Assembly (NCBI RefSeq): GCF_001540865.1
Contig: NC_033622.1
Location: 7,824,584 to 7,888,583, forward strand
Origin: Ananas comosus
Lineage: Eukaryota > Streptophyta > Magnoliopsida > Poales > Bromeliaceae
Reading direction: 5' to 3'
Length of the DNA: 64,000 nucleotides
Positions 16,201 through 53,391 of the stretch are shown here, piece after piece. A program made the position numbers and the translations under genes. The first letter of the stretch is position 1. Each line of letters opens with the position of its first letter. The notes beneath the pieces are model-generated. The model saw only the letters and a program-made list of their open reading frames with translations, ran no database searches and was not told the DNA's origin.

Positions 16201-16680
16201 ATCTCCCCCTTTGGCGATTTCGTGACAAAATATATTACAATGCTCGTACACAACTCAGAAACAATAAAAAGAAGATCATCGCAATCACCAAACGACAATC
16301 TCCTGCATGATCGATCCAATAAAAGAAAAATTACACTTTGCTCACATTCCTAAAACAAACTCTATGAGTTAAACATGGAGTCTTGAAGTCTTGAACATTC
16401 CTGCAAAAACATTCTTAAAACACAATCCAGATTCAACACTACTTATCATATCAAAAGATCAAACATAACGTCAAAGCAATAGTCATAGTTCAAGACACAT
16501 CAACAGTCATAGTTCATCTAAGTTATAGTCAAGCATCTAAGCAAACATTTAATCTAAATTTACATAACTAAGTAAAACACCAAAACATGACATGAGCATC
16601 ATGGGCATCATCATCATCATGAGCACTCCCCCTTTTTGTCAGAAAGCGCCAAAATGAGAAAAGGAGGAACCCCGCACCAC
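16201..16680 (-). other. 3' untranslated spacer and polypurine tract of the copia derivative
   Basis: Read on the minus strand this runs from the stop of accessory ORF copy 1 to a tract of the form GCCAAAGGGGGAGATT next to the LTR start. That is the normal polypurine tract for plus-strand priming. The equivalent spacer is present at 41326-41812 and 51807-52333. Confidence 0.65.
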
Positions 16681-19504: not shown

Positions 19505-20063
19505 CATCATGTCTAAAACATGGTATGTCACTAGTGACCTAGAGGTCGGATATTGTGTCACAATGTTAAATTCTAGTTATTCCATTAATTCAAGTGCAAC
19601 AAGGTTAAGTTCATACTTTATTACTATCTTTCTATATGTCATATGTAACTTGTCTACAACAAGTATATTATACATCATGCAAGTTGATTCCACTAAATCA
19701 TATAAGGTCTAAAAGACACCTCTTTTCATCATCCCTAGCGTGCTTTCTATTGTGGCATAAAGGGGAAAACACTAATGTATACTATTTAGAATGCAAGTCT
19801 ACATTTCATAACTCTACTACATAGAAGGTACAAACTTTTACATGTAACATATATATTTCATGCATTCAAAAATTTCATTATGCTATATCTAACATGAATA
19901 TGCATAAATTCAAGTTTTTTAAACATTAAGGAAGACATAGAGGGATTTCACCCATTTCGGTGAGGTCAAACTCATCGGATGCCCCTCGAACTCTTTCGTT
20001 TTCTCGAACAAAATTGTCCTCGAGAATCCTAGCACCCTAACAAAAAATCTAAGAGGGTTAGAA
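19505..20063 (-). mobile_element. Gypsy LTR middle fragment, minus strand
   Basis: Resembles 30345-30489 and, reversed, the part of the LTR at 30490 around CCATACCGAAATGGGTGAA. It may continue the LTR interrupted at 14791, but no target duplication proves it. No coding content. Confidence 0.5.
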
Positions 20064-33040: not shown

Positions 33041-33042
33041 AG

Positions 33043-33054
33043 TGGTATCAGAGC
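33043..33054 (+). other. Primer-binding site, tRNA-Met type
   Basis: TGGTATCAGAGC, two bases after the LTR end. Same primer class as the gypsy elements in the window. Confidence 0.9.
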
Positions 33055-33072
33055 GGATATAGGTTGTAAATC

Positions 33073-34885
33073 ATGGCCGAGGGCGGTAACATCAATCGAC
33101 CCCCTCTCTTCGATGGCACTAATTACGCTTATTGAAAAGTATGTATGAGGGCGTTTCTTATTGCCATCGACGAGCGGGTATGGCAAGCCATTGAATTCGG
33201 GTGGAAACATCCCACTGAAGTTGTTGAGAATGTTATCGGTCTGAAACCTAGAAATAAATGGACGAAAGAGGAAAACGAACTATCTTTGTTCAACGGAAAG
33301 GGTATCAATGCTTTATTTAATGCTTTAAATCAAACCGAATTTTCTCGTGTCTCGGCGTGTGAAACAGCCAAAGAAATTTGGGATACTTTACAAGTTACAC
33401 ACGAGAGTACAAGCTTGGTAAAGATTCAAAAATTACAAATGCTTACAAGTAGATTTGATTCTATTCGTATGGAAGAACATGAATACTTTACCGAGTATTA
33501 TACTCGTTTGCAAGACATTGTAAACACGTGTGCTAACTTAGGCGAGAAGATTCCGGACTCCAAAATTGTTAGAAAAATTTTGAGAACCCTTCCTGAACGT
33601 TTTCGTCCTAAGATTGCGGCCATAGAAACGGTAAAACATCCGGATGAACTTAAAGTAGAAGAATTAGTTGGTGCTCTTCAAACTTATGAGATGACTTTTC
33701 CTTCTAATTCGTCTTCTTCCAAGTCTTCTTCTAAAGCTTCACGTATGGCCTTAAAATCAACAAAAGGAGATGACATGACTACTTCATCGGACTCGGAATC
33801 GGATCAAACATTGGAGGAGTTTGAAAAACAATTGGCTCTTCTAACGAAGAAGTTCCGTCGGAACTTTAGAAAGAAGTTTCCTCCTTAGTCTACTTCCTCA
33901 AAGTCAAGCAAATTTAAAGGGAGTTCTTCTTCATCTTCCTTTTCTAAGAATAAAAAAATCCGAAAGTTCTTTAAAAGATTTTTCTAAAGAGAAGAAAAGT
34001 AATGAAGGTTAAATCCAATGCTATAAGTGTAGAGGATTTGGTCATATTGCTTCGGATTGTCCTAATAATAAGTCCTTGAAAAAGAAAGCGATGCAAGCCA
34101 TCACTTGGAATGATTCATTTTCGAATGAGTCATCTTCAAGTGATGAGGATGTAAACGCTACGGCGCTTATTGCACATGATTCTAATTTTATGTGTTTGGC
34201 ATCCACTGACTCTATCTCTATGTCTCCCTTGCATGAAAAATCTACGTCGAAGAACTCATCGGATGAAGAATCGGATGAAGATGATATGGTTGCCGCATAT
34301 CATCAATTGGTTGTCGAGTCGAAGAAGGTGGCAAAGCACAATAAAAAATTGTGGCGTAGATTATATGATTTGGATCAAGAGAATACAAGATTAGAGTCGT
34401 TGACAAAAAGTTTTGAGCAAGAAAAAGAGGGTTTGATTAAGGCTTACAATTATTTGCTTGACAAGTGTGCATTGCTAGAAAAGGAAAAGGAATCATATGA
34501 AGAAAATATCAATTTCCTTACCAAGCAATACACGGAAGCTAGAGAATCAAATATGGAATTCACCAAGACTATTATCCAACTCAAATCGGATTTAAATCAA
34601 TTTTCATCTAGCTCTAGCAAACTTGACAAGATGCTCGGACTTGGTCAAACAAATAAATTTGGACTTGGATACGAACGGACGTATGTTGATCAAGCAATGA
34701 AGAAAGATAACGAACATTCGACAAAAGCGGTTTCTAAGTTTTATGGTAAGTTTGCCCCTCCTAAAAACACATTGGTAAACAAAACTTGTCATTTTTGTGG
34801 TGTTTTAGGACATGTGAAAAGGTTTTGCAAACAAAAGGGTAAGAGATCTACAACACCCTTGAATCAAAGAACATCATTAAAGTGA
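33073..34885 (+). pseudogene. Gag and nucleocapsid of the SIRE-like copia, broken
   Basis: Starts MAEGGNINRPPLFDGTNYAY, then TGA (33133-33135) where the family has Trp, then reopens to 33888 with the copia gag core (WDTLQVTHE, YYTRLQDIV, ILRTLPERF). A further stop at 33886-33888 is followed by a frame change in an A run near 33955 and a TAA before the CCHC knuckle CYKCRGFGHIASDC (about 34020-34062). 34076-34885 stays open and is acidic and coiled-coil rich, with a second knuckle, CHFCGVLGHVKRFC (about 34787-34828). A TGA at 34883 closes it in the frame that leads into pol. Most breaks are Trp or Gln codons turned into stops. Confidence 0.85.
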
Positions 34886-37800
34886 ATAAAGAATGATCCT
34901 AAACCAAAAGCGAAGTCAACTTGGACTTCAAAGAAGGATGATCATAAGAAGAAACAAACGTGGACACCAAAGAAGAATACTTCGAAATCAAAGGCAAAAC
35001 AAGCATGGAAGCCAAAGAAGGAGGATCTGAACAAGAAGTTAACTCAAATCGTCGACAAGCCACGATCACCAAAAGCAAGTCAACCGTCGCAACCCAAAAC
35101 ACGTAAGGTCTGGGTGCGCAAAGGTGAACTCTTCCCATGCCTTGTCATTCACACTTCACTTCATGCTTACGATAACACTTCTTGGTATCTGGATAGTGGT
35201 TGTTCCCGTCACATGACTGGTGATAAAAATTGGTTTACTTCTTTAAATAAAATCTCCGGAGGACTTGTTGTTTTTAGAAACGGTCGGTCATCAAAAATTA
35301 TTGGAAAAGAAACAGTTACTATCTCAGATGGCCTTACTTTGAATGTTTTTTTTTATGTTGAGGGGCTTAAATCAAATCTCGTAAGCATAAGCCAATTGTG
35401 TGATGATGGGTATTCTGTGAAATTTTCTGATAAAGAATGCAATGTGACTCGTGATAATTATCTTTTCTTAAAAGGTGTAAGATCTCAGAATAACTGTTAT
35501 GTAGTTCCTAGTGCTTCATCTGAAAAGTGTAACCTAGCGACATTAGAGACTGAAACTTTATGGCATGAACGGCTAGGTCACATAAACTTTAAGGAACTAT
35601 CGAAATTAGCGAAGAAGGAAATTGTTAGAGGTGTACCTAAGATAGATTTCAAAGAGAACACTATGTGTGGGGGTTGTCAATTGGGAAAGCAAACTAGATC
35701 CGCACATAAGAATTTGAACAACTTAGGAACAACTAAACCTTTAGAGTTATTGCACATGGACTTGATGGGACCTTCTAGGATTCAAAGTTTGGGTGGCAAA
35801 CGTTATATATTGCTCATTGTTGATGACTTTACTCGTTTTTCGTGGAGTGCTGTCTTACGTGAAAAAGCCGATACTTTTGACTCTTTTTCTGAGATTTGTC
35901 TTCGTCTTATGAATGAGCGTAACAATAAAATTGTACGTATTCGAAGTGATCAAGGGGGAGAATTCATAAATTCAAATTTTGTTGATTTTTGTGTTTCTAA
36001 TGGGATTAAACATGAATTCTCGGCTCCTTATACACAACAACAAAACGAAATGGTAGAACGCAAAAATCGGGTTGTACAAGAGATGGCACGTGTTATACTT
36101 CATAGTAAGAAAATTGCTTTATATTTTTGGGCCGAAGCGGTTAACACGGCCATCTATGTTATCAATCGGATTTATATGCGTCCGGGTACTTTGAATACTC
36201 CGTATGAACTTTGGCTTGGTAGGAAACCTAATATTAAATACTTTCGTGTCTTCGGGAGTAAGTGTTTTATCCTTCGGGATCGTGAAAATCTTGAAAAATT
36301 TGACTCCCGAAGTGACGAGGGGATCTTTCTTGGTTATTCTACTATAAATCGTGCTTATCGTGCGTACAATTTACGAACTAAGATGGTGATAGAATTTATA
36401 AATATAAAAGTAGATGAAGCTTCTTCTGTAAGTACTTCTGTGAATGGTTCTTCTAATTCTTTCATTAATGATGATGAAAATGATTCTCCATTTGTATTGC
36501 CTGTGAATGATGATGTTTCTGCATTTGATAATCCCATTGCATCTCCTGAAATTGTTGCATCAAATGATTCATCTGAGTCTCAAAGCATCTCATCTGAAAT
36601 GCCTAGTATATCATCTGAGACTACACCCCTGAGAGAGTCAAGAGATCACCCCTTATCGAATGTCATTGGGGATCCTAATGTTAGTGTGCGAACTAGAAGT
36701 CAACTTCAATGTGAATTTGCATGTTATGTATCTCTAATTGAGCCAAAGAATATTGACGAAGCTCTTCTTGATGAATATTGGATAAATGCCATGCAAGAAG
36801 AACTTGGTCAATTTACCCGTAATGATGTATGGGAATTAGTGCCACGCCCTGAGCAACAAAATGTTAGTGGTACTAAATGGATTTTTAAAAATAAGAAAAA
36901 TGAGGATGGTATAGTTGTTCGAAACAAAGCTAGACTTGTTGCTCAAGGTTATTCACAAATTGAGGGGATTGATTTTGATGAAACTTTCGCCCCGGTTGCT
37001 CGTCTTGAATCTATTCGTATGTTGTTCGCGATAGTTTGTCATTTTAAAATTATTCTTTTTCAAATGGATGTTAAAAGTGCATTTTTGAATGATTTTCTAA
37101 AAGAGAAAGTTTATGTGGAATAACCAAAAGGTTTTATAGATTCTAAATTTTCAAATCATGTTTTTCGTCTTAAAAAAACACTTTATGGACTTAAACAAGC
37201 ACCGCGAGTATGGTATAAACGATTAACAAAATATCTTTTAGAAAAGGGATACAATTGAGGGGAAACGGATAGAACTCTTTTTGTAAAACACACTGAAAAT
37301 GACTTTATTGTGGCACAAATTTATGTGGATGACATTGTCTTTGGCGGAACTAAAGATACCGTTGCTACTGAATTTGCAAAGTTGATGACTAGTGAGTTCG
37401 AGATGTCTATGATGGGTGAGCTTTCATATTTTCTTGGTTTTCAAGTTAAACAATCAAAGGAAGGAATTCATTTGTCTCAAACCAAGGATGCAAAGGAATT
37501 GGTTAAGAAATTCGGTTTGGATGGATCAAAGAACTTTGATACACCGATGCGAACAAGTAACAAAGGACTTGGAGTGAATGTTGAAGGACAAAGTGTGGAT
37601 GAGAAACAGTATAGGAGCATGATCGGTAGTTTACTGTATTTGATCGCGAGTAGACCAGACATTGCTTTTAGTGTGAGAATTTGTGCTCGCTATCAAGCTA
37701 ATCCAAAAGAAGTTCATTTGAAAGCGGTTAAGAGGATCATACAATATGTTAAAGGTACAACCGCTTATGGTCTATGGTATCCGATGGGGACGTCTTTGGA

Positions 37801-38256
37801 TTTAATTGGCTACTCGGATGCGGATTGGGCCAGTTCTGCGGATGATCGAAAAAGCACAAGTGGTGCATGCTTTTATATAGGCCACTGTCTAGTTGCGTGG
37901 CATAGTAAAAAATAAAACTGTATTGCACTCTCCACTGCCGAGGCGGAATACATTGCGGTCGGTAGTTGCTATGGGTGAAAAGCTTATTGAGTGATTATCG
38001 GATCTCCTCCACCACTTTTACAATTCTATGTGACAACACGAGTGCCATTAATATTTCAAAAAATCCTGTTTTACATTCACGAACAAAGCATATTGAACTA
38101 AGATATCACTTTTTAAGAGAATTGGTTGAATCAAACGTTCTTCAACTTGAATACATTTCAACTGAAAATCAACTTGCGGATATTTTAACTAAGCCTTTGG
38201 ATCAAAAACGTTTTCTACATTTAAGAAAGGCTATTGGTATGAATCCTTTAATCTAG
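34886..38256 (+). pseudogene. Pol of the SIRE-like copia, broken
   Basis: A Lys-rich linker, then protease [13 protein letters not shown] (about 35182-35220), the pre-integrase [11 protein letters not shown] and CGGCQLGKQ, integrase core with [17 protein letters not shown] and [12 protein letters not shown] (35740-36070), reverse transcriptase [14 protein letters not shown] to [19 protein letters not shown] (about 37322) and RNase H to 38256. Stops lie at 37121 (Gln to TAA), about 37257 (TGA), 37913 (TAA) and in the RNase H part near 37977 and 37990. The longest open part is 35114-37123 (669 codons). Confidence 0.88.
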
Positions 38257-39336
38257 ATGCATTCTATTGGGTCATAGATCATGTGCATATTGCATTTTGT
38301 TTCTGTGCATGTTTTTTCGATTTTCCCTGATTATTTTTGAGAGATGATTGAGTTTCATAAATGGTGTCACTATTAATGTTATGTTTTTTAGAAATAAATT
38401 GGTTTCTGTGAGCTCTATCATATGGCTTTAATTGTTTCATAATATGTTTTGATTGATCACTATCAATGTTATTCTCTGTTGTCATAATTTTTGAACGATT
38501 AAATCATTGAAATTCTGTTTTAGTTACTGAGTTAAATTCAACACCTCATGCTTCGAACTTTGAACGTTGCAATTGTTTTGTTTGATTATTAGTTATGAGA
38601 TGAATAACTATTTCTCTGTTTTTGAAATTTGATAATATTTTTGACTTGAGGGTTGCACTAATTTAGGGGGAGTCTTTCCAATTTTAGCTATGAAAATTTC
38701 TGAAATTCAAGATGTGGAAAGAGTTACATCCCTGCTGGGAGTGTGAAAACTACCACCACATGGAGGAAAGAGCTACCACCCCGGTCGTCCGTTCAGTGTG
38801 TGCAGCTACCACATGATGATCAAAGTATCTCTATGAGACAAAAGAAAATAAAGAATAAATAAATATGAGATGTTGTGGAGATGGTAAAAGTTCTAATAAT
38901 ATATTCAATACATCTCTTAGGCAATATAAGGTGGTTTGTTAAAAGATGCTCAAAGAGCCACTCCTATCTCGAATAATGTGCATAATTCAATTTGAGGGTA
39001 TTATCTTAATTTCAAGATTATGAGATTTATTTATTCATTTTTTTAACAAATATGACGATAAAATAATACAATTAATTTTTAGATCTTGCATGATGTGTGG
39101 AATTTTATTTGATACTTATCTAGAATTTTATTTGATTTTCGGGTCAACAATTTTTGACAAATTGAATATCCTTGAAATTGATTTTTCAAAATTTATTTAT
39201 GAAATTTTTATTCGAGGTCATTGGGGAATGAAAATTGATTATTTTTGTTTTGAGGGATCTTAACATATCATATAAAATTTTTGGAAAATTTTGAACTTAA
39301 AATAAAATTTTTGTTTTTGGCTCTGGGACAAGTCCC
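38257..39336 (+). other. Pol-to-accessory-ORF spacer of the copia element
   Basis: AT-rich, no ORF. It contains a short segment with repeated GCTACCAC(C/A) units (about 38720-38815) and long T/A stretches. A similar but shorter AT-rich spacer precedes the accessory ORF at 49688-49870. Confidence 0.5.
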
Positions 39337-39905
39337 AGCCTTGGAGAGACCGGTCCCTCCACCCGAACTCGATTTAAGGGTTTCAGTTCGATCAATCTGT
39401 ACACTTTCTCAAATATTATCGAACTTCTCTCACAAGCTTCCAACTTCCCCTGGGTGATTTTGCTTCCTTTCTCCATCAATTTACACTTGTTTTCGGTAAG
39501 ATCTTCGGATTTTGTTACGTGCTTGCTATATATTCCGAAAATGTGCTTTATTTTCATATTTTTGAGGTTTGATCTCGTAATATTGTTGAATCTCTCCATA
39601 TTTGCTTTGTTCTTAACTCTAAATATGTTATTCAGGATTTTCATGCATTATTCCATATTTTGATACGATTATTTGGTCGATTTTGCTAAGTTTTCACCAT
39701 CAAAACCTTAATTTTTCAAATTTTTCGAAAATATGTGATTTTACTGATTTTTGTTGCATGATTTGTTCATGATTTTTATGATTATATGGCCCTCGGATCA
39801 TCTAGCATATTGCATATCAACTTGCTAAAGTTTTTAAAATCAAAAATCAATTGTTCTTATGTTCAATATGTATACATTATTGTGTTTAACAGGTGCCTTT
39901 TAAAC
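39337..39905 (+). promoter_or_regulatory. Putative internal promoter and leader intron of accessory ORF copy 2
   Basis: One GAGACCGGTCCCTC motif (about 39346-39359) is followed by a weak TATA-like TTTAAGGG and a CT-rich leader. A donor-like TTTTCG|GTAAG lies at 39495/39496 and an acceptor TGTTTAACAG ends at 39892, a 397-bp intron. The ATG comes 13 bases later at 39906. The same order is seen at 49873-50429. Whether the transcript starts here or in the 5' LTR cannot be told from sequence. Confidence 0.45.
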
Positions 39906-41325
39906 ATGTATTCCTGGCTACTCGCGATTGTTTTTCTTATGGCCGGTAGTGGTCGTAGAAGCAAACAACAACGTTCATCGGCTAAACAACCAGTTGAGCA
40001 ACAACCGGACGATGAGGGTAGTGAGTATGTGCCGGGCGAAGAGGGTGAAGAATCTGAAGCTGAGGAACCCGATTGGGAAGCACTTACACCAGAAGTGCTT
40101 TAGCGCCCGCAGCTGCAGAAAAGGATAAAGAGAAAGGAAAAGGAAAGGGCAAAGAAAAAGCTGTTGACAAAGGAAAAGGTAAGGCAACAGACAAAGGGAT
40201 AGATACTGGAGGTCGACAGAAGTCAGGTGGTTTTGAGATTAGAGAGCCCGTCTTTGAGCCTCCTCGATATTCTATTCAGGACGTCTCTTCACGCAGCCGC
40301 TCTATGTACTCTTTTAAACAATGCATTGGCGAACGTGATATGGGAGTTGCAAATCTAATAGAGCGTGTTCCGGCATTTCAAGATCTATTTGAACATGGAA
40401 ATCTACATGAGATTTGCAATTTTTCGGAGCAAACAGGTTTCTGCTTGGAGCTTATTAGATTTTATATGCGAGCGAGACATCTAGTTGACTCTGATGGCGG
40501 CTCGTACATGTTCACCACTTCGGTACGTGGTGTAGAGTTGACTATCACGCTCGATACGATAGCATCTGTACTAGGGATGGCAGCTCGTACTGATGGAGTT
40601 GAGTACTTGCAGGCCGGTTTTGACTCGTTTCGGGATTGGGCGCGTGTTGTGAATGCGATTTGCATGCCGGGAACAGAATCAAATGGACTTATGGTATTAT
40701 CTAAAGATTTTAAGATGGAGTATCGGTTTTTGAACTTCGTGGTTTGTTATAACATTTTGCCCTTGGCAAACACGAAGATTTTGCGTTGGGATCGTATTCT
40801 TTACATGTATTTGTTGGGCAACCCGGAGATTGTTAGGGCAACGAACATCAATATGAACATCCCCTTTCTGATTTGGCGGAGAATGGCGAAGGTATTAAGA
40901 CCTCAGGTCAGAATGAGCGGTTGCCCTTAGCATTGACCATCATGAGGATTTTGCAACTTTATTATATGGATACACATTGTACATCCTATGAGCATAGTCT
41001 GGGACGGATTAGTGAGACGATGTTTGTGAAGTCATTACTGCAGCTTCGTACTCCGTCTCAGCAACCTTCTTCACCTACTACTGCTCCACCTCCTGCTGCT
41101 CCTACTTCTTCACGTCCTTCTGTGGAGATTTCTGAGGAGGATGTCTCGGTGTCATCAGTTTATCGTGAGCAACAGCGATTATCTGAAGAGCTTCAGAAAC
41201 TATCAGCGGATCAGGCTCAGATAAGAAAGGATGTGAGCAAGATTAAGCATTTAATGAAGGTGATCTTTGATAAATTGGGTTGTTGTAGCTCAGATCTTCC
41301 TCCGCAGGGTGATGACTCAGATTGA
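39906..41325 (+). pseudogene. Copia accessory ORF, copy 2 (two frameshifts)
   Basis: About 470 codons in three frames: 39906-40103, then 40073-40930, then 40873-41325. The second break is a one-base loss near 40892 relative to copy 1. Visible parts: hydrophobic MYSWLLAIVFLMAG, a basic patch, an acidic stretch, a Lys/Gly-rich repeat (KGKGKGKEK), then the central domain from about 40300 (FCLELIRFYM, VRGVELTITLDTIASVLGM, LSKDFKMEYRFLNF, LRWDRILYMYLLG, NMNIPFLIWRRM). A Ser/Pro/Ala-rich linker follows, then a heptad-like helix (SSVYREQQRLSEELQKLSA, KHLMKVIFDKLGCC). It lies between pol and the 3' LTR. Function unknown. The SIRE position suggests an envelope-like ORF, but only the N-terminus looks membrane-active and there is no clear second transmembrane helix. 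Confidence 0.75.
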
Positions 41326-41812
41326 GTGGTGCGGGGTTCCTCTTTTTATCGTTTTGGCGTTTTCTTCACAAAAAGGGGAAGATGATGATGATGCATGATG
41401 ATGCATACATGTTGCTGATATTTTGATGCTTTTTAGATGATGATGCTTTTTAGATGATGTATTTAGATGATGATGATGGTTTTGATGCTTATTTAGGTGT
41501 TGATGGTTTTCTAACATTTTTTTTTAACAACTCTTGACTATATGACTGTTTATGTTTGATCTTTAATGAAAACTCTTGGATCTTGACTGTGTTTTGAGAA
41601 TGTGTTTTGCAGGAACTTTCAAGACTTCAAGGCTCCATATCTAAGTCATAGAGTTTGTATTAGGATTGTGAGAAAAATGTAATTTTTCTTTTATTGGATC
41701 GATCATGCAGGAGATTGTCGTTTAGTGATTGCGATGATCTTCCTTTTATTGTTTCTGAGTTGTGTTCGAGCGTTGTATTATGTTTTGTCACGAAATCGCC
41801 AAAGGGGGAGAT
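41326..41812 (+). other. 3' untranslated spacer and polypurine tract of the copia element
   Basis: A GATGATGATG-rich stretch follows the ORF, then a segment shared with the other copies. It ends in TTTTGTCACGAAATCGCC and the polypurine tract AAAGGGGGAG (41801-41810), two bases before the LTR. Confidence 0.75.
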
Positions 41813-43067
41813 TGTTAAGGATTTTCTAGGTTGGCGGATTTCGTGAAGTCGAATGGAGTCTTGAAGAGTTGATCACGGAGGTTTGAAGAGAAGATTTACT
41901 TTGAAGAATCAAAGACCAATTCGGAAAGCTCGACACCTCATGTATGAATGTTAGATCATTTGTGGTGTGTTTAAACTACCTAAATATAAGTTTAGAAGAC
42001 TTGGATTGCTATAGAAAACACAAACTGAAGTTTTCAATGTGCTGGGACCGGTCTCCTGAGATGAGAGACCGGTTCTCGAGAGTCCTCTTTGCGTGAAAGT
42101 CCAAGGCAACCGGTCTCTTGATCTGAGGGACCGGTCTCTAGGACGTGGCAACCAGTCTCTGGCACAAGAGACCGGTTCCCGAACGTTGGAATTTTTGACT
42201 CGCAGCGAGAGACCGGTCTCTGGCACGAGAGACCGGTTCCCGAACGTTGTGTTTTCTGTCACGCAGCGAGGGACCGGTCTCTCACCCGAGGGACCGGTCT
42301 GTAACAGACCGGTCTCCTCGACAGGACCGATCCCCGAGGACGACACCAGTTTTTAAAATAGACTTTTTGCAATCCTAGTCCATTTCTAAGTCTTCTAAAC
42401 CTATAAATAAGCCATGGGGGTCATCATATGAGTTGAGGCTTAGAATTTCTACTGTTCTAAAACCCTAGAAACTTGTTTTCATGTTCTTATGATTTTATTC
42501 ATATAACGAGTTTCGTATAATCAACGATCGACTTGATTATTAAGTTTTAACTCAAGATTTTCTTCGAGAATCAAGTAGATGATTGATTAGAAGGTGAACC
42601 CTCATTGCTTATGGTATTTTATGTCTTAATCACCACAAATCATCAATTCTACGAGCTTCGGAAGGAGGTTCGGCGCGTGGATCTCGCGTGAAGCCGAGGA
42701 TTCGGTGGACGCTTCGAGGAGTTGAGGTGTTGGCGCAGTAAGGAATTGCGGCGGAGTCGATTGGAGGATTCCTATCGATAGAGGACCGGCGAAGACAATC
42801 GACAACGTGAATTCAGTAAATTGAGTCATGTATTTTGGTTAAATCATTTGTACTCAAGTTTTCTTAGTGGATTTTCTTTGTGTGATCGGTCCCGTGGGTT
42901 TTTCACTCCGGATTGGAGTTTTCCCACGTTAAATCTCGGTGTGCTGTTTTTAATTTCCGCTATCTTTTTTATTTGCATCTAGAGGTTTGGTTTTTTGCCG
43001 TTTACACCTATTCACCCTTCCTCGAGGTGTTATTTACCTTTTAGATCCTTAGGATCCATATCTTTTA
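41813..43067 (+). repeat. 3' LTR of the SIRE-like copia
   Basis: 1255 bp, partner of 31788-33040. The last two bases are TA instead of CA, and TCATT follows directly. ACCGGT array at about 42045-42335. Confidence 0.9.
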
Positions 43068-43087
43068 TCATTTGCTCGTGTAGCATG

Positions 43088-46000
43088 TGTAAGGTAATGG
43101 ATCCTCGACATGCGAAACCGAACATCGATCAAAGTTGACCAAAATGCGAATTTGATCGCTTCGGAACACTTTGAAAAAGTCTGTTGTGCATTCCGAAGCC
43201 TTGGAAATGCTCAAAGGGTGTTAAGGGGCCTTGGAGAGCATTGGGATGAAGCCCCAGCATTTTTCGCAGAAATGATGCTCTCGGGGTGTAATATATTGAA
43301 ACCTCGGTAGAGATTGTCGAACTTTAACCAAATTGACTAAAGTATGCGAAAGAGATAGTTGGACAAGTTCCAATTAGTGATCCAACAAGGTTGGAAGAGT
43401 TTGAAGTGAGTTTAAAGGGGTTAGGAAGGTTTTAGCATTGTTAATTGCGAAGTAGAATCGAAACGACGCAGAAATCTGAAGTCTGGAACTTGTGCCGGTA
43501 CAACATCAGAGTTGTATCGGTACATTGTGGCAAACCGAGGGGAAGAGCTCTCGGGTTTGAGAGAAAACTGATTTTGTGCCGGTACAAATGGGTGTACCGG
43601 TACAAATGTTGCGTGCTCGAGAGAAGCTGCTCTCGGGTTTGCCTTTGCGCGATCGTGTTACCGGTGACAGAAAGGCCTGTACCGGTACACTTTGGTCTGG
43701 CAGCAATATTGAGGTCTGTTACAAATACAAGTGTTTGGGGGGCCTAGTTGCAATTGTTACACGCTATATATGACCCCAACACCCCCTCCAACCTGTTTTA
43801 CACAGCAACTCCACTCTCCCTCTCATTTCCCTCTTTCTCTCTCTAGAAATCACACCCTAGAGCAAGGAGGTGAAGGGGAAGAAGGCTTTGGAGGTGATTT
43901 TGGTAGGTTTGAAGGTCAAGAAGCTCTCCTACAAGGTGGACATTGGAGAGCTAGTGGTCAGGTGAGTTCTTATGTAAGAATAGTTCTAGGGTTTGGATTT
44001 ATACTCTAGATCTTTGGGTTTTGGACTTCTTGCAAAGCTAGAAACATTCTTGAGGCATGAACTCCATGAAAATCTATGGAAGCTCCATGTGCTCTCATGG
44101 TGAACTTCTAGGGTTCATGTTGGATGCCCTAGGGATGAATAGAATGGTTTAGAAGATGGTATTAGAGAAGTTCTAGAGGCTTAACAAGCTTACATTTGCT
44201 TGTTCTAGAGATCAAACCAAGAGATTGCTATGGTGACATTTTAGGGCACCAAATTTGGGACTTTTGCCCTAGGTTGTTTTCGAGATAAATTGACCTTATG
44301 AAAACCTAATTAGGGGTATTTTCGACGCGTTGGTGCACTCGGTTTGGCGAAACGAAAAGTCTATGTAAAGATATTAGGTAAAAAGCCTAATTTGGCTTAT
44401 TTTGGTACAGATCGCCGTAGCACGCGGGATAGGCTTCTAAAAATCATGAGAATCGAACCCCAACTCCTTTGCTACTATTCGAGGTGGGGGATGCATTCCG
44501 GAATCGTTGGATTCCCCTTTATGTCTATTTCACCTTTTATTGAGCATATGCGTCTATAGTCATTCATGCATAGTACGGTAATTTACATGTGAATATTGGT
44601 TGGGCTTCAATTATATGCTTCTAACGTAGATGAATATAGTGATTGATATGAACCATAGAGGATATGTTTGTTGGAACCCTATACATATGTGAATGTGAGA
44701 CTTGGACTATAATAATAGTAAACAAAGGTGACATTGACAATAGAGACAAGATTGGCATTGAGAAATGAATTGTTAAACAAAGTTTAACCATTAGTGGCAT
44801 TATGGTAAGTGTAGCCTAGAGTGTGGCATATATGACAAGGTAGAAACCTGTTATAGTATTGTGGCATTGTGACATTGTGGCTATACGTCCTCAAGTTGAG
44901 GATTGGATCGATACTTACGATAAGTCTTGGCTTGAGGGAGGTAGCTCCCCCTCAAGCGGTGCGCTCCGGTGTAGGTCACCATGGGGATAGTCGCCCCGAA
45001 GACGGTCCCTCGAGTGGAAGTGCTTGGAGCATCCTCGATCAATAGGGATTTCGGGTTGTGAGTTTTTGGGGTTAACAAGGTTAACTGATACAATTGGGTA
45101 AAAGCCAAGGTAAATTATGGAAAGAGCATGCATGCATATTCATCGTTACATGATTATATATCTATTTATTGACAGTTTTTTTTGCAGGCATACTATTAGC
45201 ATTAGTATGGTTACTATTCCATTTTCTTGAAATACTTATGCCTGAATAGACCTAGTGGGTAAGTCGGCGAGATCGGTGGCCGAACCCACTGGGAACTTCG
45301 TTGTAGTTCTCACACCACTAACCCTACAGATCCGAGTGCGAGCGGGGCGGCGGAGGATCGAAGCAAAGGTCTTGCGCCATAGCTAGTGGCCACCGGAGTA
45401 CATACATAGTCATTCCCTTTTGTTCATGTATCAACTTCTATTTTGTTCAAGTGATGTAAAAGTTGTAAACAATCATGTATTTTGGGTTGGATGATTATGA
45501 TGTAATAGTTTTAGTTTACATGTATTTGGTTAAAATGTAATCAAATATTATGTATGTGGTTGCTTGTAGTAGATTAGAGCTTTCATGCTTGTTGTTGCTT
45601 GCCCTCGTGCAAGTCTTATATAATTGCAAAATCTCATTGATTGATTTCTTAATTATACTTGTTGCTAGAGCCTTGGGCAAGCAGGGGAGGTCCTATCCGT
45701 TCGGTGTCTGTTGACGTGGCCCGAATCCGACCAAATAAGCGGAGCTCGGGGCGTGACATAGAGTCCAGACCCTATGCAGGTTTCGGACCCCGTAGCCGAA
45801 AACCGCCCAGTTCGGGTAGTGCGTAAAGTGGCTTGTGTGAGGGGTTTTGTGCAATTGTATTTGAGTGGGGGTATTTGTGAGGGGTTGTTAGCTTATTTCC
45901 CCTCATTTCCTCACACTTGCACACCAAAAGAGAACTCTCTCTCTCTCTAAGCTCTCTCTCTCTCCTAGGGTTGGTGCCAAGAGGAGGAGAATAGTGGTGG

Positions 46001-47781
46001 AGGGTACTTGGAAGTGGAGCTTCTTCCTCTTCTTCTTCCTTAGCTCAAGAAGGAAGCTTGTTTGAGGTAAGCTCCTTGTGCTCTAACAGTGAATGGTTAG
46101 AGCTAGGTCTAGATCCTTTAGAAATGAGTTGAATGGAAACCCTAGGTGATGTTATGCTAGACTATTGCATAAATCTATGGTTGTTATGTGTATTTTTGCA
46201 ATAGTGGATTCTAGGGTTTTGAAAGAGGGCTTTTGATCATGGATGGGTTTGATCTATATTGAGCCTATGTAACTCTAATTGAAGGTAAAACCGACATTGT
46301 AGGCAACTCAAATTGAAGTTCCTACAGACGCGCGGCGAGCTATCGAAGAAAAGTACGATTTTTGGTTTGTTTGCATGAAGTCGGGCCGAAACGTCATCCA
46401 TAAATTGCAAGACTAGGATTCTATCATCGCGGCATCACCAGAAGGTAGGGGGTGCTATCCGAAGCAATCAGACTTCTTCCTATGTCTATGTTGTATTGTT
46501 GACCATATATTTCACATGTTATTATGCATTATAGGATGAGTTGGATAGTTGTATTTCAATTCCTTGCATACTTCCATGGTAGAAATAGAAATTGTGAGTT
46601 GAACACATAATCTAGTGGATGCATGAGGATTGGGTCTTGACATGGAATTCTATAGTGACAAGAACAAGTGGTGAACTTGAACAATATGATGATGTAAATG
46701 AGTGGCATATGAACTAGTGTAGTAGAGACACTTACAACATGATGACATGAACGAGTGGCATTTGAAACTAGTGTAGTAGAAACACTTGTGACATGAATAT
46801 TGGGATTGGTGGATTTCCTGAGTTTGCTATTAACCCTAGTAGATAGGGTATCCTAATGTTGAGAGAGGATTGGATCATACTCACTTAGTATGTTCTCGCT
46901 TGGTGGTGGTCGCTCCACCCAAGCAGTGAGCTCCGGAGTTGTCACACTATGGGTTAATGTAATTACCCAGTAGACGGTCTCGGGTGTGCGTAGGGCAAAT
47001 TCTCCTCACCGATGGGATTGCGAAGTGAGTCGGGGCGTCGCGTAACCTTCGAGTTAGCCAAGATGATTGGGTGACAAGCATATAAATGGCATATATCATG
47101 AGACATAGTAGTATGATAGTTGATTTCATTGCTATGTAGATACTTCATTCATACCATGATGATTGAGACATAGTAGTATGATAGTTGAATTTATGGCTAT
47201 GTAGATATTTCATTCATTTCATGTTAATTAAGGCATAGTAGCATGATAGTAGATTTCATTACTATGTTAGCAGATTTCATTATCCTGTTTATATTCCTAC
47301 TTATGCCTGCTTAGACCTAGTGGGAAGATCGGCGGAGTCGGCGACCAAACCCACTGGGAACTATTCTTAGTTCTCATCCCACTTTGTTGCACGGCCTAGC
47401 ACGAGCGGACCGGCAGATGATCGCAGTAAGGGCATAGCGCCCTAATTAGTAGCCTCCTTTTTGCATTAGAGTATCATGTACCTTTGAGAGATATGATGTA
47501 TATTGGGTGAGGTTGCTTTTGGAGAGTTGCATATGTATCATGAGATGAACATGTAAACCTAATGATGTAAATGGATGAATATGAATGTAATAGCTAGTTT
47601 TCTCTCTTGCTCTCGCTTGTATCATTACTCGCATTGTTCATGTATGTTGTTATGTTTATCTGGGCAACTAAACGTACATGATTGATGTTGTTGAGCTTTG
47701 GGCGGACAGGGGAGGTTCTGTTCGTTCCGCGTCTGTTGGACGTATCCAAATCGACCAAATTGGCGGTTGCGAGGCGTGGCA
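43088..47781 (+). repeat. 5' LTR of the nested gypsy element (43088-43286 and 45759-47781)
   Basis: The first 199 bp match 59841 onward up to GATGCTCTCGGGG. The LTR then breaks for a solo LTR and resumes at 45759 with GTCCAGACCCTATGC, matching 60028 onward. It ends GAGGCGTGGCA at 47781. Two splits of CT-rich leader with GGTAAGCTCC and GAAGGTAGGGGG could be splice donors. Confidence 0.85.
43287..45758 (+). mobile_element. Solo gypsy LTR, plus strand, 2472 bp, inside the 5' LTR
   Basis: Begins TGTAATATATTGAAACCTCG and ends GGGGCGTGACA. It is the same family as the reversed LTR at 55095-57597. ACCGGT-type motifs lie at 43493-43693 and a TATATAT box at 43765-43771, followed by a CT-rich leader with a donor-like CAGGTGAG (about 43959). 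Flanking 5-mers (CGGGG, TAGAG) match poorly, so the target duplication has decayed. Confidence 0.75.
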
Positions 47782-47788
47782 GATAAAG

Positions 47789-47800
47789 TGGTATCAGAGC
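47789..47800 (+). other. Primer-binding site, tRNA-Met type
   Basis: TGGTATCAGAGC, seven bases after the 5' LTR end of the nested gypsy element. Confidence 0.9.
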
Positions 47801-48141
47801 AAGTTAAGAGAGAAGTCTAGGATGGACCTAGGAGACCCTAGGACGGTAACCTTACGGCTATAGGTGCGTGAATGAGACGTTGACCTATGCCGGGCGGCGG
47901 AAGTTAATTCAATCGGGTGTAATTATTATTATGTCTCTAATGGTTGATAGAGACGAATTCAAGTGATATTAGTTCTCGACTTTAGGAGGTTATGTTGGCG
48001 GCCGACAACATGACACTGAGAGTTGATAATGAGTACGCTTGTGTGCTTCCACCTAATTGCGATGTTGAGTCGTTTCGTTCTTGAATTGCGAGAAGTTCGC
48101 GGGTTAAGATGATTAACTAAGTTGTTACGTTTCAGGAGCTA

Positions 48142-49088
48142 ATGGCACCAAAGAAACGCCCCGTGACGAGATCTGCTCCGGCACCACCTCCCGAGGTGCC
48201 CGAGCAGTCAGGATCTGAAGAAATGCGGGAGTTACGAGTGCAAATTGCTACAATGGTTGGTGTGGTGCAGCGCCAAGAGGATCGGATTGCAAGGCTGCAG
48301 GAATTGGTGGTGCAGCAGGCGTTGGCTTAGGCAGATATTGGGCGACCTACGCCCCCTGCTTTGTATCTGGTGCGACGGAGGGAGTGGCCACGACGGCTGT
48401 ACCGGTTGCAGTGCGACCCGCACTGGTGGTGGTGGCTACTGGTTCAGGGACTTCAAATCCCGAGGGTGCGGCATTGGAGGCGGAAAGGGAGCGCGCACTT
48501 GCGGCCCTTGTGATGTTCCGAAAGTTTAGTCCACCGGTGTTTGACAGGGAGAAAGTCGAGCCTTGGATGGTCGAGTCATGGATTGACTGGATGGAGACCC
48601 TCTTTGAGGATCTCTACACTTTGGAGAAAGACAAAGTACACCTTGCCACACATTGGTTGGAGTGGTCGGCGAAGGTGTGGTGGAAGAGGGTCAAGCGAGA
48701 TCGGTCTTCCGACCTTCCGTCGTTGACGTGGGAGGAGTTTCAGGAATTAATTTTCACTAATTATTTCCCCGATAGTGAGAAGAAGAAGCTTCAAGACCAA
48801 TTCCGAAAATTGAGGCAAAGAAATCGCTCGGTGGGAGAATATGAGAGGGAGTTTTCTCACATCATTGACTGCGTCCCCGATGTGGTGCGGGACGGCAAGG
48901 ATCGGGCCGATTGATTCGAGTGAGGACTTCGGCCGGATATCTACAAGGCGGTTCATATCCTCAAGCTTACTACCTTTGCAGAGGTGTTAGATCCGGCGTT
49001 GTGGGCGGAGCATGGTAACGCCTATGCTCGTACTAAGCGTGAGGCATCCGAGAAGGACGGAGGAAAGAAGCGAGCTCCGGGTGGTTCG
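48142..49088 (+). pseudogene. Gag (5' part) of the nested gypsy element, broken
   Basis: MAPKKRPVTRSAPAPPPEV starts after an acceptor-like GTTTCAG. A TAG at 48328 and a frame change follow before the gag core in 48384-48914 (PPVFDREKVEPWMVESWI, WWKRVKRD, FTNYFPDSEKKKL, EYEREFSHIIDCVP). Two TGA codons at about 48912 and 48918 replace likely Trp. The frame continues to a Lys-rich end and is cut at 49088 by the copia derivative; it resumes at 53392. Confidence 0.8.
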
Positions 49089-49687
49089 TGTTAGGTCCTA
49101 TGTGTTGGCAAGTTTCGTGGGTCTAGTCGGAGTCTTGAAGAAGTCCGGAGCGCAGTATTGAAGATCGAAGAATTCAAGACTTAGAAGAATCGGAAAGGAC
49201 GCAAAACACGCAAAACTTGAATCACGATGCTCAGGTAAAGTTTTAATTTATGTTATGGTGGTTCATACTTAGTTATAGGCATTAGAATCATTTAATCAAA
49301 GTTTAGTTGGTTAGAAAGTGCTTCGGAAGGTTACGGAACTCGAAACAATGCAAAATCTCAAAAATTGCATTGTGTACCGGTACAGCAATTGAGCCCGTAC
49401 CGGTACAGCCATTGACTTGGCTTCGTATTTCTGTTCCATCCTTGTGTAACCGGTGACAGCCTTTCGTGTACCGGTACACTGTGTAAAACCGTGAAAACTT
49501 TCTAATTCGACTCCGATTGATTCTAAAGTCTATAAATAAGCTGTTTTAAATGTATTTTGATTCTCAATTTGTATTTGGACTACACGCGAGGAGTTAATGT
49601 TTTGTGATGACATTGAACTTCGTTTTCTTTTACAATGTTAATTGTTGAGTTTGTTTTTTTGTCACGAAATTGCCAAAGGGGGAGATT
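49089..49687 (+). repeat. Truncated 5' LTR joined to a copy of the 3' spacer
   Basis: 49089-49544 matches the start of 52334-53391 up to CTATAAATAAGCT, including GTACCGGTAC motifs (about 49374-49480). From 49545 it matches the sequence just before the 3' LTR, including GTCACGAAATTGCCAAAGGG. After AGATT, where the LTR should start, unrelated DNA follows at 49688. Confidence 0.8.
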
Positions 49688-49872
49688 CATCAACTCACAT
49701 CTTGATAATTTTGAAACTTGAAATCAGTTTTGATTATGAAATTTTGATGTTTGGATGTATTTTGAAATTTTATAATATATTATTTTCATCATAATGATTT
49801 TTAGAGTAAAAACCTTAATTTATATGAAATTAATTTAATTTGATGGATTTTTAAAGGAAAATTTTCGAAATC

Positions 49873-50429
49873 AGGGATCGTGTACCGGTACAGGATCGTG
49901 TACCGGTACGGGTACTGTAGCCGCGGATATATATCCGGTTACAGAGTTATTGTTCTCTCTCAAATCTGAACCAAACTTCATTTTCTCTCTCTCTAAAAAT
50001 CCCTGGTGCCTTCCTCTTGCTGATCTACACGTTTTCCCTCAGATATTTGTGAGTATTTAGCTTGGATTTAATCGTTTCATCGCGTTCATGTTTATTTTTC
50101 GAAAATATTTCGAGTTGAAGCTAGATCTCTGTTTTTTATCGTTTTTGATGCAATTTTTTGCTGTAGATCAGTGCTTAATGACATTATCTTGCTTCTAGAA
50201 CACTTGAATCACATCAAAACACATTATTTTTCGCTGATCTAAGATTTATGCTCTAATATGCATGTAATTTCGGAATTTTTCAAAAAGTTCAATTTTTGCT
50301 GAAATTTCTTGCATGATTTGGTTAGAAATAGCATTTGTATGCATTCTAATGTATTTAGAAACTTTTTTGCTGTTTTTACAGATTTTTTTCAAAAATTTTG
50401 TTCATGTATGTAATTTTTGATATAGGAAA
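49873..50429 (+). promoter_or_regulatory. Putative internal promoter and leader intron of accessory ORF copy 3
   Basis: Two GTACCGGTAC motifs (about 49881-49910) precede GGATATATATCC, a TATA-like box at about 49925-49936. A CT-rich leader follows. A donor-like ATTT|GTGAGT lies at 50048/50049 and an acceptor TTTTTGATATAG ends at 50425. The ATG is four bases further. The intron of 377 bp matches the 367- and 397-bp candidates of the other copies in position and size. Confidence 0.5.
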
Positions 50430-51806
50430 ATGGCGTTTTTGCTCGTACTGGTGCTTTTGGTGCTAATGGCTGGGAGATGGAGCCGTGGTGGTGGTAGAGG
50501 TCGTCAAGGGGCTTCTAAAAGGACTCGTACAACTGGAGAAGCGTCCGGATCTGATCCGGATTATTAGGAAAGCTCCTCTGAAGAGGCAGAAGAACCTATT
50601 GCTGCTCTTGATAAGGGCAAAGGAATAGCTGGCGAATACTCACGTGGCGGTGGTTCTCGTGCAAGAAAAACTCGGTCAAAGCATGCTGCAGATGTTCCTC
50701 CTGAGCGACGGAGGATGTACATGAGCAAGTCTTGCATTGCGGAGCGTTATGTCAACTTCAACGATCTTATTCATGACGTTCCTGACTTTCGCAGGTTGCT
50801 TCAGCGGGTTCCCATTGAGCCGGTTGGCAGAGTCCCTGCTCGCGCTCCTTTTTGTGTGGAACTCATTCGTGAGTTCTATATGAACGGAAAGGTACTTGCA
50901 GAAGATGAGGAGACCGGGACATTCCTCTTTGAGACATTCGTGCGTCAACAGAAGATTGCCGTTACCCCATATACTATTGGAGAGTTTTTGGGGATGAACG
51001 TAGACACTACGGGTTTTCTTTATACATCAGGTGGATTTCAGTCCTTATCTCATTGGGATACTGTTGTTGGAGCTATCTGCAAGGCGGGAGTGCACACTAA
51101 TCGTGCCTATGTAGAATCCAAGGATTTGCGACCAGAGTATCATTTACTTTCCTTGGTCTTGAGCTATAATGTGCAACCTACAATTGGGACAAAAAGAATC
51201 CGTTGGGATCGTTTGCTTCTACTGTTTTTGCTTGGCCACCCGGAGCAAGCTTATGGATTGAACATCAACATTCCCTTTTTAATGTGGCAGCGGATGGTCC
51301 ATGTCATTCAAGCTTCTGCCAGGCGGGATCTACTTCCATTTCCTCTTTTGATCACGAGGATTTTACAGGAGAATGGAATAGATGTTTCTTGCGAGAAGTA
51401 CGATTTCGGCCTTGGTCCTATCGATGCTGTTACTTGGGCCAAGTCAGTTAGTACACTAAAAACTTTTCAGCAGACAAACGGATCGTCGCGACCAGCTTCA
51501 AGCCAGGCACCTCCACCTCGAGCTGAGCGTGAGGGATCTTCCAGTTCAGAGGGAGAATCTCTTCGTCATGAAGTACGGTCTTTAAAGAAGAAGGTGGCTG
51601 ATCTTGCCAGGAAAGTGGAGGTAGGCATGAAGAGAATGATGGACAAGTTGGGATGCAGGCATGACGATATTTTTCCTACACAGCCTGTCTATACGAGGTC
51701 TACTTCCCGACATCCTCTTATTCCTCCGTCTACTGGAGCTTCAGGTGCGGGAGGTTCTGGAGCTGCTGGAGATGATGATGATGATGATGACGAGGACACG
51801 GAGTGA
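50430..51806 (+). pseudogene. Copia accessory ORF, copy 3 (one in-frame TAG)
   Basis: 458 codons in a single frame, interrupted only by TAG at 50565-50567 (codon 46). Residues 1-15 (MAFLLVLVLLVLMAG) are strongly hydrophobic, followed by an Arg/Gly-rich patch and an acidic Ser/Glu stretch. The central domain runs about residues 95-330: RAPFCVELIREFYM, ITVTPYTIG-like (IAVTPYTIGEFLGM), VESKDLRPEYHLLSL, IRWDRLLLLFLLG, NINIPFLMWQRM. A Ser/Pro-rich linker, a probable coiled coil (about 376-410, HEVRSLKKKVADLARKV) and an Asp run near the C-terminus follow. It aligns in order with copies 1 and 2 but with many substitutions, so it is a separate subfamily. The ORF from 50715 (363 codons) is open by itself. 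Function unknown. Confidence 0.75.
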
Positions 51807-52333
51807 TCTCTGTCTCGCATTCAGACTTGCTGCTTCCCTATGTTTTTCTTTAGGACGATGTTTTCGCTTTGTTTGCTTATCTTTTCTTTGCTTGTTTTAT
51901 TTTTGTTTAGGCCTGTAACTATGACTAGGCTACTATTATGCTTTCTAGTATGTTTTTTTCTCTCTATTTGCTTTATTTTGGCAATTTTTGACAAAAAGGG
52001 GGAGAGCGTAGATGAAGGGGGAGAGCGTAGATGAAGAGGGCAAGCATAGATGAACAGGCATTGAACTAAAGCAGAGGATGATGAGAGTTCAAAAACAAAG
52101 ATCGAGATGTGAACAAAAGGGAGAAGGAAATCAAGACTTCAAGACTCCTAGTTGCGTCTAAGTCATAGAGTCTGTTTTAGGAGTTTTAAATGTAATTTTG
52201 ATTCTCAATTTGTATTTGGACTACACGCGAGGAGTTTAATGTTTTAGTGATGACAATTGAACTTCGTTTTCTTTTTACAATGTAATTGTTGAGTTTGTGT
52301 GTGTTTTGTCACGAAATTGCCAAAGGGGGAGAT
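51807..52333 (+). other. 3' spacer and polypurine tract of the copia derivative
   Basis: Contains ACAAAAAGGGGGAGAGCGTA twice-like units near 51990-52035 and ends GCCAAAGGGGGAGATT before the LTR. It matches the spacer copy at 49545-49687. Confidence 0.65.
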
Positions 52334-53391
52334 TGTTAGGTCCTATGTGTTGGCAAGTTTCGTGGGTCTAGTTGGAGTCTTGAAGAAGTCCGGAGCGGAG
52401 TATTGAAGATCGAAGAATTCAAGACTTCGAAGAATCGGAAAGGACGCAAAACACGCAAAACTTGAATCACGATGCTCAGGTAAAGTTTTAATTCATGTTA
52501 TAGTGGTTCATACTTAGTTATAGGCATTAGAATCATTTAATCAAAGTTTAGTTGGTTAGAAAGTGCTTCGGAAGGTTACGGAACCCGAAACAATGCAAAA
52601 TCCCAAAAATTGCATTGTGTACCGGTACAGCAATTGAGCCCGTACTGGTACAGCCATTGACTTGGCTTCGTATTTTTGTTCCGTCCTTGTGTAACCGGTG
52701 ACAGCCTTTCTTGTACCGGTACACTGTGTAAAACCGTGAAAACTTTCTAATTCGACTCCGATTGATTCTAAAGTCTATAAATAAGCTATTGGGGTTCTCT
52801 AACAGATCAAGCATCACGCAAATACATGTTTGAGAAACCCTAAAGGCTCGGATTTCATTCTAAACCTATTTTCTACAAATTAGCCTCTTTAGATCAAATC
52901 GAGATATTATTTCGCATTCTCTATATGTCGATTTGATCTCCGCTTCGCTTGGAGTTCTATTCCCTGATTTTCTACGATACTCCTAAGCGAAGGATCACCA
53001 TAATCATGATACTCTTCATGAGTGGCGTCGTGGATTCGGCGTGATTGAAGCTTCGTGGATTCGAAGTGGAGGCGTTTGTGGACTCGAACGTGAGGGCGTG
53101 GACAACCCGGAGGGTAGCGCGAAGATTCATAGGAGGTTAAGAGAGGTTGAGTCCGTGGAGTCGGTAATCACCTTGTAATCTTTTCTCTTAGTGAATTATT
53201 TTTTCGCGTGTTGGTCCCGTGGGTTTTTCTCCAAGTTGGAGTTTTCCCACGTAAATCTCGGTGTGCTTTTTATTTTCCGCATTTATTTTTATTGCATCGA
53301 GATTTGTGGTTTTTGGCGGTTCACCTATTCACCCCCACCTCTAGGTGATAGATACAATCTAGATAGATCCTTGGGCTCCTCAAAACTTTCA
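52334..53391 (+). repeat. 3' LTR of the copia derivative, 1058 bp
   Basis: Begins TGTTAGGTCCTATGTGTTGG and ends AAACTTTCA, followed by GTTCG. GTACCGGTAC motifs lie at about 52617-52727 and a TATA box (CTATAAATAAGC) near 52782. Confidence 0.85.

Follow-up and report, generated by a model that had tools for sequence, protein, structure and literature searches.

We analysed a stretch of 64,000 nucleotides of the pineapple genome (Ananas comosus, assembly GCF_001540865.1, contig NC_033622.1, positions 7,824,584 to 7,888,583, forward strand), referred to below as the window, which carries three copies of an open reading frame (ORF) related to the Pfam family Transposase_32 (T32, PF20167). The explanation that best fits our results, and that we consider probable, is a selected third gene of pineapple Sireviruses, which are Ty1/copia retrotransposons, with its own putative internal promoter and a leader intron that would be spliced out. 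All positions below are those of the window, in which the three copies lie as follows:

16681..18080, minus strand: T32 ORF copy 1, broken
39906..41325, plus strand: T32 ORF copy 2, broken, with open pieces at 39906-40103, 40064-40930 and 40837-41325
50430..51806, plus strand: T32 ORF copy 3, with a single stop at codon 46 and an open piece at 50568-51803 (412 aa)

An earlier note on this DNA had proposed these three frames, and re-reading of the window returned them at the same coordinates, including the one stop of copy 3 ahead of its final stop. Frameshifts disrupt copies 1 and 2, and copy 1 also has stops. The likeness to Transposase_32, claimed in the same note, was confirmed: the pieces of copies 1, 2 and 3 score 68.9 bits (E 6.6e-19), 54.4 bits (1.9e-14) and 78.1 bits (E 9.8e-22), all above the PF20167 gathering score of 45 bits. 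In the alignment of the core (A2), PF20167 was the only Pfam match at the E-value used, and it was obtained with 9/9 members. The Pfam name is a label only, and the Pfam search returned no other domain for the core. The architecture described earlier (hydrophobic start, basic patch, acidic stretch, core, Ser/Pro linker and a coiled coil with DKLGC) was seen again in the aligned genomic copies. Copies 1 and 2 belong to family A and copy 3 to family B; the two families have ~43% of residues in common in the N-flank and core. In a single-sequence database search, the 11 relatives of copy 3 were all Ananas comosus proteins, and other homologue searches returned Ananas proteins, further assemblies and one 85-aa entry assigned to the fungus Macrophomina.

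Genome-wide searches, which cover the 382-Mb genome, gave 618 first-look T32 candidates. All of the 150 that were scored exceeded the PF20167 cut-off, and 128 of these 150 were stop-free inside the matched domain. For the estimate of selection, 26 full-length natural ORFs, all of them different (14 from family A and 12 from B), were drawn from the 60 best-matching loci. The pooled ratio of nonsynonymous to synonymous divergence (dN/dS) was 0.022/0.297 = 0.07 in family A and 0.051/0.333 = 0.15 in family B. It stayed below 0.27 in each sub-region of the ORF in both families, with values for A and B, respectively, of 0.039 and 0.136 in the core, 0.070 and 0.231 in the hydrophobic start (few sites), 0.141 and 0.266 in the low-complexity part, and 0.081 and 0.123 in the coiled coil and tail. 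When disrupted copies were added, and pairs with <40 synonymous core sites left out, the core gave 0.043 in A (28 rows, 352 pairs) and 0.103 in B (31 rows, 465 pairs; copy 3 is present twice, from the window and as locus L039). Between nearest neighbours, dN/dS was 0.071 for intact versus 0.126 for disrupted copies in A, and 0.191 versus 0.214 in B. Within-family dS reaches 0.4-0.8. Judged by these substitution patterns, the ORF is shown to be protein-coding and under strong purifying selection in both families, and a chance ORF is ruled out by dN/dS. The past constraint at which the earlier note had hinted is thus borne out, and so is the check that it proposed, dN/dS well below 1; a value near 1, which it held to speak against function, was not seen.

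The association with pol was examined with the best 60 of 4,044 candidate matches to the copy 2 pol and the best 150 T32 matches (58/150 RVT_2 matches entered the test). A T32 domain among the matches listed lies within 9 kb downstream, on the same strand, of 20 of the 60 copia pol matches, at a distance of 3,183-3,323 bp in 16 of these 20 pairs; the upstream control gave 1/60. Absence of the ORF from intact elements, which had also been named as an argument against function, is therefore not what is seen.

Copy 2 provides the clearest context for the ORF:

31787..43065, plus strand: Sirevirus-type Ty1/copia element of copy 2, with long terminal repeats (LTRs) at 31787-33038 and 41812-43065, 95.2% identical
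34886..37912, plus strand: copia pol pieces of this element (Pol_BBD, integrase, RVT_2; Pfam), at 34886-37120 and 37259-37912
41801..41811, plus strand: its terminal polypurine tract (PPT), AAAGGGGGAGA, with a further PPT-like run at 38665

A primer-binding site (PBS) is found at 33043, next to the 5′ LTR, and Pfam recognises gag, a zinc knuckle (CCHC), integrase and RVT_2 pieces. Repeated-motif (RM) boxes (ACCGGT) occur ten times in each LTR and once 5′ of the ORF. Sirevirus hallmarks include the PBS, multiple PPTs and palindromic RM boxes (PMC2829016). Copy 2 combines an RVT_2 copia pol, a CCHC gag and a PBS adjoining the 5′ LTR. Several near-identical PPTs precede the 3′ LTR in copy 3 (51993, 52014, 52322) and in copy 2 (38665, 41801), and palindromic RM boxes are present both in the LTR and 5′ of the ENV-like gene, with a TATA box 3′ of the RM boxes in the LTR. 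As far as position and these hallmarks of copy 2 can tell, the ORF is the third gene of pineapple Sireviruses, the ‘ENV-like’ gene (T32) of the Sirevirus literature. The earlier note had placed all three copies between pol and the 3′ LTR. This holds for copy 2; copy 1 is a 3′ remnant consisting of the ORF and one LTR, where homology to copy 2 stops at 18129, and copy 3 lies in an element devoid of gag and pol.

The signals 5′ of the T32 ATG follow one order in both families: RM palindromes come before a TATA box, then a pyrimidine-rich leader leads to a GT donor, and beyond an AT-rich stretch comes an acceptor, ~4-14 nt from the ATG. Donor and acceptor would delimit a leader intron of ~380-410 nt. 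In copies 2 and 3 these features are:

39348..39355, plus strand: RM palindrome GACCGGTC of the copy 2 internal promoter
39371..39379, plus strand: internal TATA position of copy 2, GATTTAAGG in this copy and GATATAAGG in most family-A copies
39401..39495, plus strand: putative exon 1 of the copy 2 5′ untranslated region, ATG-free, start set at TATA+30
39496..39892, plus strand: putative leader intron of copy 2, GTAAGA ... TTTAACAG
49881..49909, plus strand: pair of RM palindromes, GTACCGGTAC, in the internal promoter of copy 3
49926..49936, plus strand: internal TATA box GATATATATCC of copy 3
49956..50048, plus strand: putative exon 1 of the copy 3 5′ untranslated region, start set at TATA+30
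50049..50425, plus strand: putative leader intron of copy 3, GTGAGT ... GATATAG

These signals were counted in 23 A and 27 B copies, a set that excludes copy 1, two A loci and identical sequences; the upstream alignments leave out L011 (N-rich), L013 (too short) and nine loci with no located ATG. The TATA consensus is present in 17/23 A and 26/27 B copies, the donor GT in 22/23 and 26/27, and an AG within 25 nt 5′ of the ATG in 23/23 and 27/27. In copy 1, the acceptor TTTAACAG is still found immediately 5′ of the ATG. The last RM box precedes the TATA box by 14 bp in all 16 A copies that could be scored, and by 17-19 bp in 17 of the 22 scorable B rows (copy 3 counted twice). As candidate promoter of family A, a TATAAAA at 39266 was replaced by CGATATAAGG, located behind the RM boxes.

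The leader is depleted of ATGs by comparison with 200 dinucleotide shuffles: 0 in the 23 A copies (mean length 97 nt) against 16.1 ± 3.7 expected (minimum 6), and 3 in the 27 B copies (mean length 93 nt) against 13.7 ± 3.5 (minimum 4). Intron ATGs exceed the shuffled mean (250 versus 220 in A, 263 versus 197 in B). The leader intron is kept in 50/50 copies (23 A and 27 B), and therefore the RNA that was reverse-transcribed was unspliced at this intron. Such a layout of RM boxes, TATA, leader, donor and acceptor in genomic DNA supports the long-suspected internal RNA polymerase II (Pol II) promoter, together with a leader intron removed by splicing. The T32 gene would be transcribed from this promoter, excision of the intron would rid the transcript of about ten upstream ATGs, and the transcript presumably terminates in the 3′ LTR. 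An internal promoter of Sirevirus ENV had been hypothesised by Peterson-Burch and Voytas but not conclusively identified, according to PMC2829016, and no report of a mapped TATA, exon or intron for Sirevirus ENV was found in a partial survey of the literature, with subscription papers outside it.

A pattern search of 31 B loci found no pol end within ~600 nt upstream of the promoter, and the pol-less organisation was therefore followed up. Copy 3 itself is carried by a short element:

49089..53391, plus strand: copy 3 element, 4,303 bp, with a 5′ LTR fragment at 49089-49545 and a 3′ LTR from 52334; no gag, no pol

Translated search with the gag and pol of copy 2 found neither gene in this element. 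Likewise, a translated search of the flanks of the 31 B-type T32 loci gave copia pol in 0/31 and one gag match. Among eight upstream stretches fetched, six (L069, L070, L071, L072, L073, L076) carry gag without integrase or reverse transcriptase (RT). These six gag-bearing stretches adjoin B-type T32 loci (L048 and L049 have one identical stretch in common). Their gag is 78-81% identical to that of copy 2 in five loci, L073 being partial only, and it is followed by a pol remnant of at most residues within the first ~95 of the copy 2 protease-integrase-RT piece. The L075 stretch contains a zinc-knuckle (CCHC) remnant only. Within 4 kb upstream in L074 (G000:C10:8485800-8489900), whose T32 ORF is 74% identical to copy 3, the search found neither gag nor pol akin to those of copy 2; this locus may represent a further family with a different organisation.

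Genome-wide, among the best 67 gag and 101 T32 matches, 15 pairs of gag and T32 lie on one strand within 12 kb. In 11 of the 15 the gap measures 2,117-2,321 bp, which leaves no room for a whole pol. The dN/dS of gag in four B copies is 0.14-0.28 over 6 pairs (the gag pieces of L073 and L076 were too short to be included). At this level of evidence, the family of copy 3 is shown to have lost pol and to have kept gag and T32, both under purifying selection; copy 3 itself additionally lacks gag. Because the pol-less lineage keeps Gag and T32, the role of T32 would lie outside reverse transcription and integration. Its product may have Gag or the nucleic acid of the element itself as its partner, in packaging, trafficking or regulation of its own LTR, a step of the proposed scheme that we regard as weaker.

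What T32 does can be narrowed only partly. A Gag/particle or movement partner, env-like proteins included, is a serious though minority possibility, and so is a function of another kind; a family-specific regulator of the LTR and internal promoter is a tentative option. We rank the partner and the regulator about equal.

Bearing on the regulator are the RM palindromes, which were tallied in 30 A loci and 32 B rows (copy 3 twice), the downstream part including the LTR portion covered. In family A, the CCGG-centred palindromes comprise 97 GACCGGTC and 0 TACCGGTA 3′ of the ORF, and 42 GACCGGTC and 9 TACCGGTA 5′ of it. Those nine upstream TACCGGTA were ruled out as family-A boxes, since all were traced to the foreign LTR that abuts copy 1. 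In family B, TACCGGTA occurs 59 times 3′ and 54 times 5′ of the ORF, and GACCGGTC in neither part (0 and 0). Within the copy 3 element, the GTACCGGTAC motif recurs at 49374, 49397 and 49468 in the 5′ LTR piece and at 52619 and 52713 in the 3′ LTR. Thus each family has its own type of RM palindrome, changing jointly in LTR and internal promoter. Between A and B, T32 has a median dN of 0.67 (86/168 scorable pairs; dS saturated), compared with 0.12-0.14 for gag.

Foamy-virus Tas acts on the LTR and on an internal promoter. By analogy, the T32 protein might bind the RM palindromes of its own LTR and internal promoter and activate or de-silence the element. In its specific form, a sequence-specific dimeric activator or anti-silencer of its own family's CCGG-centred RM palindromes and a retrotransposon counterpart of VANC or Tas, the idea strikes us as rather unlikely. 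It would account for the agreement of RM type between LTR and internal promoter within each family, and for a protein far more divergent between families than gag yet constrained within each. Palindromic sites would suit a coiled-coil dimer, the N-terminus is basic and RG-rich, and a selected advantage in cis would explain why T32 was retained in the pol-less lineage; VANC proteins and their motifs are likewise differentiated between families (PMC10398659). Pfam, however, recognises no DNA-binding domain in the core and no fold match was obtained, a hydrophobic N-terminus under constraint would be unusual in a nuclear protein, and the joint change of RM type, seen in two families only, could come from a host factor or from recombination. 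If the idea were true, T32 would be made from a self-contained, intron-bearing internal gene, selfish enough to persist after the loss of pol, and a portable regulator, not an envelope, would also explain the Transposase_32 reported in an Athila (gypsy) element.

A retrovirus-like env, expressed from a spliced sub-genomic LTR transcript (with its donor in the 5′ leader and its acceptor ahead of the ATG) with no internal promoter and encoding an envelope or movement product, is doubtful as well. The acceptor does adjoin the ATG in both families, and a spliced env-like RNA has been reported for Bagy-2, with splice acceptors predicted in Bagy-2 and Athila (PMC7264820 and PMC2829016). The hydrophobic N-terminus is constrained (dN/dS 0.07 in A, 0.23 in B) and a coiled coil is present at the C-terminus. 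Against this, there is a donor close by, 380-410 nt upstream, preceded by an ATG-depleted leader and by a TATA box whose distance from the RM boxes is fixed. At ~13 residues, the hydrophobic run may be too short to cross a membrane: averaged over the best 19 residues, hydropathy comes to 1.24 for an A example, 1.37 for a B example and 1.82 for copy 3, and an envelope-type span would cover ~19 or more residues. The core also has no Pfam match besides PF20167 (9/9 members). The earlier note had opposed Transposase_32 to a viral envelope; the match stands, but the contrast does not, as both labels cover overlapping sets of 3′ ORFs. The structure prediction that it suggested was run (AlphaFold) and proved uninformative: mean pLDDT reached 43.6 for the open piece, and the core came to 58.3. 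In Foldseek searches of PDB and BFVD, no fold passed E≤0.001 (the lowest E values were 0.82 and 0.23), and two matches in a profile search of PDB sequences (E 0.35 and 0.79) were treated as chance.

A captured plant gene carried without function is very improbable: gene-like anatomy (TATA, leader intron) is expected of a captured gene, but a dN/dS of 0.04-0.15 with within-family dS up to 0.4-0.8 rules out a functionless passenger, and T32 was retained while pol was lost.

Several observations weigh against a selected gene with its own promoter and leader intron. The 60 loci are best-scoring matches, which may push dN down, a bias that we judged too small to explain the low dN/dS. Among the 150 T32 matches listed, 40 of the 60 pol matches have no T32 partner, and 52 of the 67 gag matches have none among the matches listed. 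Promoter and intron were read from genomic sequence alone, with transcription assumed to start at TATA+30. The TATA consensus is missing in 6/23 A copies, including copy 2, where it is altered; the RM-TATA spacing is longer (35-37 bp) in 5/22 B rows; and exon 1 is no more conserved than the intron. The copies being related, deviations from the shuffles are not independent tests, although A and B are separate lineages. Finally, the N-terminal hydrophobic stretch is constrained, for which a purely nuclear protein has no obvious need.

The surroundings of copies 1 and 3 show further rearrangements. Two LTR features belong to, or abut, copy 1:

14991..16201, minus strand: LTR belonging to the copy 1 element, of the type found in family A, with GACCGGTC boxes between 15726 and 15972
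18124..19505, minus strand: stretch resembling an LTR from another Sirevirus family, directly next to copy 1; its outer end is approximate

The abutting stretch, which differs from the family of copy 1, has an LTR start, a cluster of GTACCGGTAC boxes and TATATATA, and matches at least 39 other genomic places; most of these matches stop at one common position, give or take a few bases. By eye, if a GT nearby served as donor, one ATG in this stretch would share the reading frame of the copy 1 ORF. A Ty3 chromovirus (45768-62023; ~2-kb LTRs, 94% identical) harbours the copy 3 element, which is flanked by a candidate target duplication, GTTCG (49084-49088 and 53392-53396). The 5′ LTR fragment of copy 3 ends just 3′ of its TATA box. 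Directly behind this fragment, at 49543-49687, a segment resembling the one in front of the terminal PPT is fused to the first PPT, which looks like a PPT-to-PPT template switch or a deletion; the other B loci listed align to copy 3 only from ~49686 onward. At a substitution rate of 1.3e-8 per site and year, the LTR pairs date to ~1.9 million years for copy 2 and ~1.0 million years for copy 3 (457 bp only). Elsewhere in the window, a frame open over 1,389 codons (24038-28207) has a Ty3-type gag-protease-RT-RNaseH-integrase order, an ORF at 2628-4178 (minus) resembles a leucine-rich repeat (LRR) receptor kinase (Pfam LRR, Pkinase), and another Sirevirus fragment at 62741-63413 (minus) has a gag start and an LTR end akin to copy 2.

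The role and expression of the extra 3′ gene of Sireviruses and Athila have been a long-standing question; for one plant genome, there is now evidence of selection, of a probable transcription unit and of independence from pol. Exact coordinates of the conserved TATA, leader exon and intron make expression and function of the ENV-like gene testable by ordinary molecular biology, and the pol-less lineage separates the function of T32 from that of pol.

The closest known system is the Sirevirus ENV-like gene of SIRE1 and relatives (Bousios et al. 2010, PMC2829016), with the same position between pol and the 3′ LTR, a PBS and more than one PPT; palindromic RM boxes likewise occur both in the LTR and 5′ of the gene, and a TATA lies behind the LTR RM boxes. 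SIRE1 uses stop-codon suppression, whereas TATA, ATG-depleted leader, donor and acceptor are conserved here in two families. In sunflower, the ORF(+) of Athila 14 is a 487-aa additional ORF in sense orientation at the 3′ end, with a Transposase_32 match at residues 133-312 and a predicted nuclear localisation of its product (PMC11728184); its host element is Ty3/gypsy, unlike the Ty1/copia element of copy 2. The Athila ORF-1 model PF03078 had 0 matches in the pineapple genome, and the search controls gave none either. Pol-less Athila families of Arabidopsis (PMC2410132), which have LTRs with Gag and Env ORFs only, parallel the copy-3 family, and their gag and env are under purifying selection (omega 0.19-0.38 in the rows covered). 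They are gypsy elements, not copia; the word ‘intron’ is absent from that paper, and the passages covered describe no internal promoter. TR-GAG elements (PMC8704663), a name that occurs also in a pineapple paper (PMC6022998), are, like the copy-3 family, LTR elements without pol whose gag is intact and which can move with most proteins missing. Gag is the sole ORF between their LTRs, whereas the copy-3 family retains T32 as a second gene. The anti-silencing VANC proteins of Arabidopsis VANDAL transposons (PMC10398659) combine an element-encoded protein with short non-coding motifs, differentiated between families; this is an analogy only, with a different transposon class, a different protein and a hypothetical binding of T32 to RM boxes. 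The Sirevirus ENV-like gene and selected gag and env without pol in Athila were thus already known; new are the layout of a putative internal promoter and intron in two families, the pol-less copia lineage with gag and T32, and the family-matched RM palindromes in LTR and internal promoter.

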